Shown piece after piece: positions 24,517 through 27,209 of a stretch of 64,000 nt of DNA. Numbering within the stretch: position 1 is the stretch's first letter; every line of letters starts with the position of its first letter. This DNA is from Natronomonas marina (GTDB lineage: Archaea; Halobacteriota; Halobacteria; Halobacteriales; Haloarculaceae). The stretch is taken from contig NZ_CP101154.1 of assembly GCF_024298905.1 (NCBI RefSeq), forward strand, positions 3,436,932-3,500,931, written 5' to 3'. Under the pieces are notes generated by a model. It was not told the origin of the DNA. It saw only the letters and a list, made by a program, of their open reading frames with translations, and made no database searches. A program made the translations under genes and the position numbers.

Positions 24517-24540
24517 CGCCTCGGTACCCCTATTTCAGGT

Positions 24541-26400
24541 ATGAATATTCTGCCGGACACGAGCGCGGTCGTCGACGGCCGCGTGTCGGAACGCGTCGAG
24601 CAGGAGGGCTTCGACGGGACCGTCTACGTCGCGGAGGCCGTCGTCGGCGAACTGGAGGCCCAGGCCAACGACGGCCGCGAGAGCGGCTGGGAGGGCCTCG
24701 AGGAACTGCAACGGCTCGCCGACTACGCCGATTCGGGCGACATCACCGTCGAGTACGTCGGCCGCCGGCCCGACGCCGTCGAGAAGCGGGACGCCGGCGA
24801 GGGCGAAATCGACGCCATCATCCGTGAGTTGGCCGCCGAGTACGGCGCGACGCTTCTGACCAGCGACATCGTCCAGAGCGAGGTCGCCGAGGCCAAGGGA
24901 CTCGCCGTCGAGTACGTCGAACCCCGGACGGACGACGGCGACGATGACGACGAACTCGCAATCGAGCAGTACTTCGACGAGGAGACGATGTCGGTCCACC
25001 TCAAGACCGGCGTCGCGCCGATGGCCAAGCGCGGCACCGTCGGCGAGATGAGTTACGAGCACATCGGCGAGGACGTCCTGACCGAGGAGCAGATGCGGTC
25101 GTTCGCCACCGACGTCGTCGACACCGCTCGCTCCGCCTCGGAGGGGTTCGTCGAGCTCTCCCACCCCGGCATGACAATCGTCCAGATCCGTGACCTCCGC
25201 ATCGCCGTCGCGGAGCCGCCCTTCTCGGACGCCATCGAGGTGACCGCCGTCCGTCCCATCGTCAAGACCGAACTGGACGACTACGAGTTCGCCGACGAAC
25301 TCCGGGACCGACTGGCCGGACGACAGCGGGGCGTCCTCATCTCGGGGTCGCCCGGCGCCGGGAAGTCGACGTTCGCACAGGCGGTCGCGGAGTTCCTCAA
25401 CGACGCCGGATTCGCGGTCAAGACGATGGAGAAACCCCGTGACCTCCAGGTCGGTCCCGAAATCACGCAGTACACCGAACTGGGCGGTTCGATGGAGAAC
25501 ACCGCCGACTCGCTTTTGATGGTCCGGCCCGACTACACCATCTACGACGAGGTCCGCAAGACCTCGGACTTCGAGACGTTCGCGGACATGCGGATGGCCG
25601 GCGTCGGCATGATCGGTGTCGTCCACGCGACCCGTGCCATCGACGCTCTCCAGCGACTCGTCGGCCGCGTCGAACTCGGGATGATCCCGCAGGTCGTCGA
25701 CACCGTCGTCTACATCGAGGCCGGGGAGGTCGACACCGTCTACGACGTCTCCACGGAGGTGAAGGTGCCCCACGGCCTCGTCGAGGAGGATCTGGCCCGG
25801 CCCGTCATCGTCATCGAGGACTTCGAGACCGGCAAGCCGGCCTACGAGATTTACACCTTCAACCGTCAGGTCGTCACCGTCCCGCTGGAGGGCGCCGACG
25901 GCGAGGCCGAGTCCAGCGGCGTCGAGCGCGTCGCCAAGCAGGAGATCGAGCGCGAAATCCGGTCGGCCGCCCGCGGCCACGTCGAGGTCGAACTGAAGGG
26001 CGGCAACGAGGCCGTCGCCTACGTCGAGGACGACGACATCTCCTACGTCATCGGGAAGGGCGGCGGCCGCATCAGCAAGATCGAGGACCGCCTCGGAATC
26101 GACATCGACGTCCGAACCTTCTCGGAACGCCCCGGCGGCAAGAGCGCCACGAGCGGCGCGGGCGGCGGTGGCGGCACTGCTGGCGAGGTCGTGACCCCGG
26201 AGGTGACCAATCGCCACGTCGTCATCCCGCTGGGCGCCCACGAGGGCGAGACCGTCGAGGTGCGGGCCGACGGCGAGTACCTCTTCACCGCCACCGTCTC
26301 CCGGGGCGGCGAAATCCAGGTCTCGCGCGGGTCCGCCATCGCCGAGGAACTGGAGGCGGCCATCGACCACGGCCGACAGGTGACCGTCGTTCCGCAGTAA
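24541..26400 (+). CDS. PINA: PIN-domain, secretion-type ATPase, KH-domain protein
   Basis: A 619-residue archaeal PINA. The N-terminal PIN nuclease fold (about 1-120) has acidic residues in ILPDTSAVVDGR, EAVVGELE, GEGEIDAIIRELA and LLTSDIVQ. A type II/IV secretion-like hexameric ATPase core follows, with Walker A GSPGAGKST at 269-277 and Walker B region PDYTIYDEVRK. A KH domain (about 505-545, YVIGKGGGRISKIEDRLG) and a TRAM-like C-terminus complete it. In Sulfolobus the orthologue promotes Holliday-junction branch migration with Hjc, so a role in replication-fork or recombination processing is plausible (family knowledge). Its TAA stop is the first base triplet of a large inverted repeat. Confidence 0.93.
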   Translation: MNILPDTSAVVDGRVSERVEQEGFDGTVYVAEAVVGELEAQANDGRESGWEGLEELQRLADYADSGDITVEYVGRRPDAVEKRDAGEGEIDAIIRELAAEYGATLLTSDIVQSEVAEAKGLAVEYVEPRTDDGDDDDELAIEQYFDEETMSVHLKTGVAPMAKRGTVGEMSYEHIGEDVLTEEQMRSFATDVVDTARSASEGFVELSHPGMTIVQIRDLRIAVAEPPFSDAIEVTAVRPIVKTELDDYEFADELRDRLAGRQRGVLISGSPGAGKSTFAQAVAEFLNDAGFAVKTMEKPRDLQVGPEITQYTELGGSMENTADSLLMVRPDYTIYDEVRKTSDFETFADMRMAGVGMIGVVHATRAIDALQRLVGRVELGMIPQVVDTVVYIEAGEVDTVYDVSTEVKVPHGLVEEDLARPVIVIEDFETGKPAYEIYTFNRQVVTVPLEGADGEAESSGVERVAKQEIEREIRSAARGHVEVELKGGNEAVAYVEDDDISYVIGKGGGRISKIEDRLGIDIDVRTFSERPGGKSATSGAGGGGGTAGEVVTPEVTNRHVVIPLGAHEGETVEVRADGEYLFTATVSRGGEIQVSRGSAIAEELEAAIDHGRQVTVVPQ

Positions 26401-26406
26401 CACCCA

Positions 26407-26412
26407 CTTTTT
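26407..26412 (+). terminator. T-run terminator after the PIN-ATPase gene
   Basis: CTTTTT occurs 7 bases after the stop codon; T-runs act as archaeal terminators. The identical element on the opposite strand follows the convergent gene. Confidence 0.5.
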
Positions 26413-26915
26413 ACACGACCCCCTCCGGGGGTCGGCAAAAACGTGGGGAAAATATGCGCGCATGCTCCTTTCGGCGGGCCTTCGGCTCGCCTCCAGTCCG
26501 CGCGCGCTACGGCGATTCGGCGCCTCCGGCGCCTCATCGCCGGGAACCGCCTCGGGGGCGACCTGACGGACGCCCCCTCGGCGGATGCTATCCACTGTAT
26601 TCGGTCGAGCGTCGAAACCGGACGTTCCGTATCGGCAGTCTAAACCCGAGAACTCCCGGTCGGAGTTCGTCACCGGTCATCGCCGGTGAGTCGAAGCGAT
26701 AGGAAATCGAAACCCCCGGCCAGTATCCGCCGAGCGGGGCCTTCGAAGAAGGCCCCCGAGGCGGTTCCCGGCGACGAACGAGCGAAGCGAGTGAGTCGCC
26801 GTAGCGCGCGACGACTAACGCTCAGCCGACCGCAGGGAGGCTGAGCGGCTGGAGGAGCGCGCGCATATTTTCCCCACGTTTTTGCCGGCCCTCTCGCTGC
26901 GCGAGAGGGCCGTGT

Positions 26916-26921
26916 AAAAAG
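26916..26921 (-). terminator. T-run terminator after the winged-helix gene
   Basis: On the minus strand CTTTTT follows the stop codon by 7 bases. It is the exact mirror copy of the terminator on the other side of the palindrome. Confidence 0.5.
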
Positions 26922-26927
26922 TGGGTG

Positions 26928-27209
26928 TTAGTCGTCGGAGGCGGCCGCGTCGGTGCCGCCGTCGGCGGCGGCCTCGACCGGCGCCTCGATTTCGTAGAGG
27001 TTCTGCCGTGCGTCTGCGAAGTACACGTCCTCGGTGACGATGTCGATCTCTTCGAGGCGTTCGAGCGCGTACCGAACCGTTCGGGCCGACAGCATCGACT
27101 CCTCGACGATGTCCTTCTGGGTCATCGGCCCGTTGTACTCGAGCACCTTGTAGACGAGTTTCGCGCTTGGTGGGAGGTCCGAGAGGTCTTCCCCGTCAGA
27201 ATCGGCCAT
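26928..27209 (-). CDS. Winged helix-turn-helix protein (MarR/ArsR-like)
   Basis: A 93-residue DNA-binding protein. The winged helix covers about 15-75: SAKLVYKVLEYNGPMTQKDIVEESMLSARTVRYALERLEEI, seen here as GPMTQKDIVEESMLSARTV and ALERLEEIDIV. The tail is Ala/Asp-rich and disordered. Such small regulators are common and conserved in haloarchaea; no target is known. A TATAAAG-type element on the minus strand near 27238-27244 sits about 30 bases before the ATG, so the message has little or no leader. It converges with the PIN-ATPase gene across the palindrome. Confidence 0.88.
   Translation of the reverse strand: MADSDGEDLSDLPPSAKLVYKVLEYNGPMTQKDIVEESMLSARTVRYALERLEEIDIVTEDVYFADARQNLYEIEAPVEAAADGGTDAAASDD

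Follow-up and report, generated by a model that had tools for sequence, protein, structure and literature searches.

Structured intergenic repeats of the ERIC, BOX and RUP types are ~100-200 bp long, and those of the BOX type are modular; to our knowledge, neither strict gene-end spacing nor in-place subtype swapping is known for any of them. The REP, BIME and REPIN sequences of bacteria are dispersed extragenic palindromes present in many copies; some lie no more than 15 nt from a stop codon, and some form inverted pairs. REPs are 20-40 bp long and are served by RAYT (Y1) transposases, and in E. coli the REPs located within 15 nt of a stop codon stall ribosomes (PMC12306157). Among haloarchaea, the PATEs and SMR-A repeats of Haloquadratum are transposase-free, bear palindromes, have divergent copies and make no target duplication, and other small repeats insert into the palindromes of Haloquadratum repeats (PMC3119063). 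PATEs in particular are derivatives of IS605-type transposons; their palindromes are near-terminal, and they have a short target oligonucleotide (PMC3119063). Archaeal T-stretch terminators have five T just past the gene, and the T5C motif terminates 95% of transcripts in Haloferax volcanii (PMC7237163).

We compared these systems with a repeat found between two convergent genes of Natronomonas marina, which proved to belong to a dispersed element. Like REPs, the element is extragenic and lies near stop codons, and it shares with PATEs and SMR-A repeats their haloarchaeal hosts, palindromes, divergent copies and lack of transposase; no target duplication was seen for it. In contrast to REPs, it is ~120-250 nt long (191 positions in our covariance model, compared with the short 20-40 bp palindrome), contains four ordered hairpins with conserved linkers, occurs singly at gene ends and shows no correlation with Y1 transposases. 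It is set apart from PATEs by their published description, in which there is no link to stop codons or strand; on inspection, the sequence between the stop codon and the element varied, unlike the fixed 5' target oligonucleotide of PATE/IS605 elements, and no transposase gene adjoined the copies inspected. The five T are shared with the archaeal terminators, but ordinary T-stretch terminators lack a fixed, conserved, structured module of 120-250 nt after the T-run. REPs and PATEs/SMRs were the nearest kinds in the open-licence literature searched, and none had the same architecture or gene-end spacing. Likewise, no known structured RNA matched at the gathering score (Rfam 15), which agrees with the preliminary description, to whose author no described element of such form was known.

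Two facing copies between convergent genes

The window analysed is a stretch of 64,000 nt of the Natronomonas marina genome. In this window, a gene for a PIN-domain ATPase on the + strand (24520..26400, start approximate; Pfam PIN and T2SSE domains) converges with a winged-helix gene on the - strand (Pfam HTH_24). The entire gap between them, 26398-26930, is 533 bp long and includes the TAA stop codons of the PIN/ATPase gene (26398..26400, +) and of the winged-helix gene (26928..26930, -). As the preliminary description had noted, the sequence revealed an inverted repeat that spans the whole gap from both stop codons, T-runs included, with an outermost block that is exact over 20/20 bases. A repeat finder resolved the arms into blocks of 33 nt (97%), 28 nt (93%), 26 nt (96%), 37 nt (76%) and 17 nt (88%) and showed that each arm holds hairpins of its own. 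The side hairpins differ in sequence between the arms, and self-complementarity without gaps amounts to only 172/533, as the pairing of the arms is gapped. Upon folding, one strand of the gap gave -375.5 kcal/mol compared with -232.7±7.5 for shuffled sequences (z -19.2) and the other gave -365.8 compared with -238.0±7.7 (z -16.7), neither value being reached in 100 shuffles; the check proposed earlier thus placed both strands far beyond chance.

The arms are indeed inverted, but they do not form a single long palindrome. The gap consists of two facing copies of a dispersed, structured element of ~190 bp around a unique 132-bp centre (26590..26721), for which a single 21-bp match was the only relative found. 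Copy A (26404..26589) begins 3 nt past the stop codon of the PIN/ATPase gene, lies on the strand of that gene and matches the covariance model with 181.8 bits; copy B (26722..26924) begins 3 nt past the other stop codon, lies on the strand of the winged-helix gene (-) and matches with 189.3 bits. In copy A, the 5' strand of the first helix, P1, which is supported by covariation, is CCAC-TTTTT-ACACG (26404..26417) with the sense T5 at 26408-26412. It is followed by a variable hairpin within P1, ACCCCCTCCGGGGGT (26418..26432, helix 2 of the alignment), and by the 3' strand of P1, CGGCAAAAACGTGGG (26433..26447), as judged from the sequence and the alignment. Three more hairpins occupy 26448..26580 in the alignment, together with the conserved linkers GAAAATAT, CTACGG and GGGAACC, and the copy stops sharply at GCGGATGCT (26581..26589), after which alignment and flank comparison revealed only locus-specific sequence. 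The sense T5 of copy B reads AAAAA on the + strand (26916..26920, -).

Copies A and B share 76% identity (rank 29), whereas copy A shows 85.5% identity with a copy 230 kb away and copy B shows 82.3% identity with copies in other genomes. Since each arm is nearer to copies elsewhere than to its partner, arm-to-arm conversion, which had been suggested as a means of upkeep, does not maintain them. The palindrome exists because each of the two genes carries a copy and not because its arms correct each other.

Architecture of the element and evidence for P1

In the orientation of the upstream gene, the copies retrieved share one plan: a stop codon, 0-6 nt, CCAC-TTTTT-RCACG, at least one variable hairpin, CGGC-AAAAA-CGTGG, GGAAAATAT, a hairpin with an internal loop, CTACGG, a hairpin, GAACCGC, a hairpin and GCGGATGCT. 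P1 corresponds to CCAC-TTTTT…AAAAA-GTGG, and every copy ends with GGATGCT. Both ends are sharp, and the sequence outside them is locus-specific. The covariance model, with four hairpin regions, was built from a 17-copy alignment containing 37 pairs, of which 18 were changed on both sides. Paired cells made up 94.9% of this alignment, compared with 80.9±1.0% after shuffling and 39-49% when the structure was slid. P1 is invariant among these 17 sequences, and its pairing is therefore uninformative there. Among subtypes, its outer stem varies on both sides (CCA/TGG, CGA/TCG, GCA/TGC, GAA/TTC and others), and 46 of 53 distinct flank pairs were fully complementary, compared with 21.5±2.7 and a maximum of 30 with shuffled partners. 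P1 is a real, covarying helix.

Five copies in the Natronomonas marina genome (L018, L019, L024, L028 and L033) share a common stretch 3' of GGATGCT, GTTTCAGTTTMCAAGGAGTGAATCRGCCGCTCG, and words resembling it are also present in some spacers of genome G004. We looked for a conserved promoter 3' of GGATGCT and found scattered TATA-like words only, and the element was rejected as an antisense RNA gene. Small double-hairpin inserts were also observed within the hairpins of some copies (L192, L193, L166, L168, L163, L195, L210, L026, L033 and L035), for example GTGGCGGC..GCCGCCACGTCCATTCGGTTGCGGGC..GCCCGCAACC and GTTCGAGAGACGCC..GGCGTCTCTCGTCATCACGAGAG..CTCTCGAAC; these resemble a separate REPIN- or SMR-like family.

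The folded form may act in the RNA of the upstream gene, as a 3' untranslated region whose linkers bind a protein, or which protects against 3' exonucleases or slows ribosomes at the stop codon. The single orientation relative to the gene is consistent with such a role, as are the conserved unpaired linkers between covarying helices and the ribosome stalling caused by REPs close to stop codons (PMC12306157). In the stems of the element, G-U pairs outnumber A-C mismatches (94 vs 57), while upstream coding hairpins show 513 vs 704 (Fisher p 3e-6), and this excess favours sense-strand folding. However, it weakens when the stem threshold is changed (p 0.17 and 0.71), and G-U accounts for only ~3% of stem pairs, so that the stems are nearly perfect and closer to DNA-level perfection. 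Moreover, the T5 precedes the structure, and most transcripts should therefore end before the structure is made. Taken together, we consider a sense-strand RNA element unlikely. Correction of imperfect palindromes during replication could be another source of perfect, covarying hairpins, and for this reason we claim no RNA function from covariation alone. A strand test with UNCG tetraloops was uninformative, as its excess was traced to the conserved linker CTACGG.

Position relative to gene ends

We surveyed 183 non-redundant copies, 146 of which had a long reading frame ending nearby. In 134/146, 3-12 nt (mode 6-7) separate the stop codon from the start of the T-run, which lies on the strand of the gene. 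The upstream genes include housekeeping genes identified with Pfam as PurH-like, succinyl-CoA ligase, glutamine synthetase and DNA polymerase DP2, and the gene at L018 is PcrB (Pfam). The DP2 gene at L118 (3155-5200) contains an intein with a LAGLIDADG domain. One copy lies 7 nt after tRNA-Met, and another (L235) follows a tRNA-like 3' end that was read by eye, although the tRNA program did not report a tRNA there; translation is therefore not needed.

The mapped copies demonstrate that both genes of a convergent pair can have a copy of their own. In genome G004, pairs of copies closer than 600 bp were all convergent (11/11; tandem 0, divergent 0), and some of the close pairs face the promoter of the next gene instead of a second stop codon. 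Seven inverted pairs in this genome (including L128, L131 and L135) have spacers of 67-69 bp and join two different subtypes. The sequences of these spacers look unrelated despite their constant length. At L021 (2191-3519), an IS630-like transposase gene pair is inserted between convergent copies that lie 37 bp apart in a relative (L040). An autonomous gene between inverted copies was sought in the Natronomonas marina genome, and only an IS630-like insertion and ordinary genes were present.

Distribution among haloarchaeal genomes

The preliminary description had proposed a search of haloarchaeal genomes by sequence and covariance model, and this search revealed a dispersed family in many of them. 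The 533-bp query gave dozens of partial matches of one arm each in its own genome and many further copies in relatives from the genus. With the covariance model, we found 33 copies in the Natronomonas marina genome, as many as ~94-97 in relatives, and matches in 17/20 genomes of the genus, where near-complete genomes hold from 0 copies (G001 and G019) to ~97 (G004). In the family, 97/116 genomes and 21/22 genera had matches, with E-values that are rough owing to a short calibration; in the order, matches were found in 57/146 genomes, also with rough E-values and with the weak distant matches inspected in part. Carriers include Natronomonas, Haloarcula and Halorientalis, among them the culturable N. 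gomsonensis and Haloarcula argentinensis/japonica, and the distant copies inspected have the same landmarks at the same place after stop codons. We found no copy in the plasmid or phage records searched. These are apparently an undescribed family of hairpin-rich gene-end cassettes in many salt-loving archaea, with up to ~100 per genome. The range of copy numbers within Natronomonas would permit a presence/absence search for a partner protein.

Gain, decay and replacement

Two relatives have the same gene pair without the element; the gaps measure 172 and 194 bp, the stop codons are different and neither T5 nor A5 is present. The preliminary description had held that absence of homologous palindromes from relatives, together with freely diverging arms in other strains and no transcript over the region, would point to a neutral accident. 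The outcome is mixed. A single inverted duplication, accidental or produced by assembly, would fit the absence at this gene pair. However, dozens of other gene ends carry the element in a structurally conserved form, which argues against an accident: in independent genomes, members of the family lie at other genes, show compensatory changes and keep a fixed spacing, and the arms here are not identical. A neutral accident or assembly artefact is refuted by this family-wide conservation, and we regard it as extremely improbable.

Comparison of 20 gene ends across four relatives revealed patchy occupancy. A T5 was present no more than 30 nt from the stop codon at 32/32 occupied orthologous sites and at 2/41 sites scored as empty, and on inspection the two T5-bearing "empty" sites held an unrecognised or decayed copy. 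Remnants were found in several empty sites, and sites have decayed in some species. Three species that are ~95% identical can carry different subtypes at the same gene end, with flanks matching on both sides. In one clean recent event, G002 has ~491 nt directly after a stop codon (a copy, a ~68-nt spacer and an inverted copy) where G003 and G016, both ~95% identical, have ~21 nt; the ~21 nt were replaced, with no target duplication. Single copies lack a terminal inverted repeat, and inverted pairs have one. At the level of sequence, these comparisons document gain, decay and replacement of the element at gene ends.

Such turnover could be that of a mobile element that is selfish, non-autonomous and sharply bounded, which would insert or replace at the least harmful sites and whose terminator activity would be a by-product or camouflage. 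The high dispersed copy number with large differences between species, the sharp ends with locus-specific flanks, the recent event in G002, the different subtypes at one gene end in close species and the nested hairpin inserts are all consistent with mobility. In contrast, we saw no target duplication and no copy in plasmid or phage records, the copies within a genome are old (median identity 74-75%), and the spacing of 6-7 nt from the stop codon is hard to obtain from random insertion and selection. Reverse transcriptase (PF00078) is found in 0/20 Natronomonas genomes, some of them incomplete drafts, and a retroelement or group II intron was rejected on this basis. IS200-type transposase (PF01797) is present in element-free genomes (5 in G001 and 3 in G006) and scarce in rich ones (1 in G004, and 1 in G000 with a stop inside); it did not track copy number, some of the rich genomes being incomplete drafts, and a RAYT/IS200 partner was rejected on this basis. 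We consider a selfish mobile element somewhat unlikely.

Proposed function

The alignments, searches and position survey together demonstrate a sequence family with a conserved predicted architecture, strict orientation and a set distance from gene ends. We give about an even chance to the reading that this dispersed gene-end element, located 3 nt past each stop codon in the present locus, is in each copy a compact two-way transcription terminator or insulator. Termination would be the simplest use of a T5 fixed 6-7 nt past the gene end, and the T5 just after gene ends lends weight to the earlier suggestion that the repeat bears on transcription termination. On the strand of the gene, the T5 ~7 nt past its end would stop the mRNA or tRNA precursor. 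On the opposite strand, RNA polymerase arriving from the neighbour would transcribe three G+C-rich hairpins and then TTTT and TTTTT, an arrangement like that of a bacterial-type terminator, and would be stopped before it entered the gene in antisense. In copy B, sequence inspection placed the T-runs that would be met in this way at TTTTCCCCACGTTTTT (26868..26883, +), after the hairpins. As each copy would stop both strands, the facing copies would insulate the PIN/ATPase gene from the winged-helix gene. The bidirectional role is what we infer from these motifs and their order.

Several observations argue against this reading. The T5 of the element precedes an A or G, in contrast to the H. volcanii motif with its final C. 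A terminator needs less than the conserved unpaired linkers (GAAAATAT, CTACGG, GAACC and GGATGCT), which suggest that a protein or a folded RNA is involved in recognition. Within a single genus the element is patchy (0 to ~97 copies), which indicates that genes can do without it, and its sites decay in some species. A terminator role leaves the linkers, the sharp ends and the exchange of subtypes unexplained; these point to a recognising factor. As a broader and tentative proposal, which is possible but doubtful at present, the copies may be exchangeable structured cassettes found across the order. A route involving neither retroelements nor IS200 would set these cassettes, which comprise several subtypes, at a constant spacing behind protein and tRNA genes; close species would swap one for another in place, and the cassettes would mark the boundaries of transcription.

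A structured element found across the order in dozens of copies per genome, at a near-fixed distance from gene ends and absent from both Rfam and the papers searched, would constitute a new class of archaeal genome feature. That subtypes are exchanged in place at the same gene end between species that are ~95% identical implies a replacement process with no known enzyme. The element also allows a direct test of the means by which haloarchaea, whose convergent genes are densely packed, keep transcription out of neighbouring genes.
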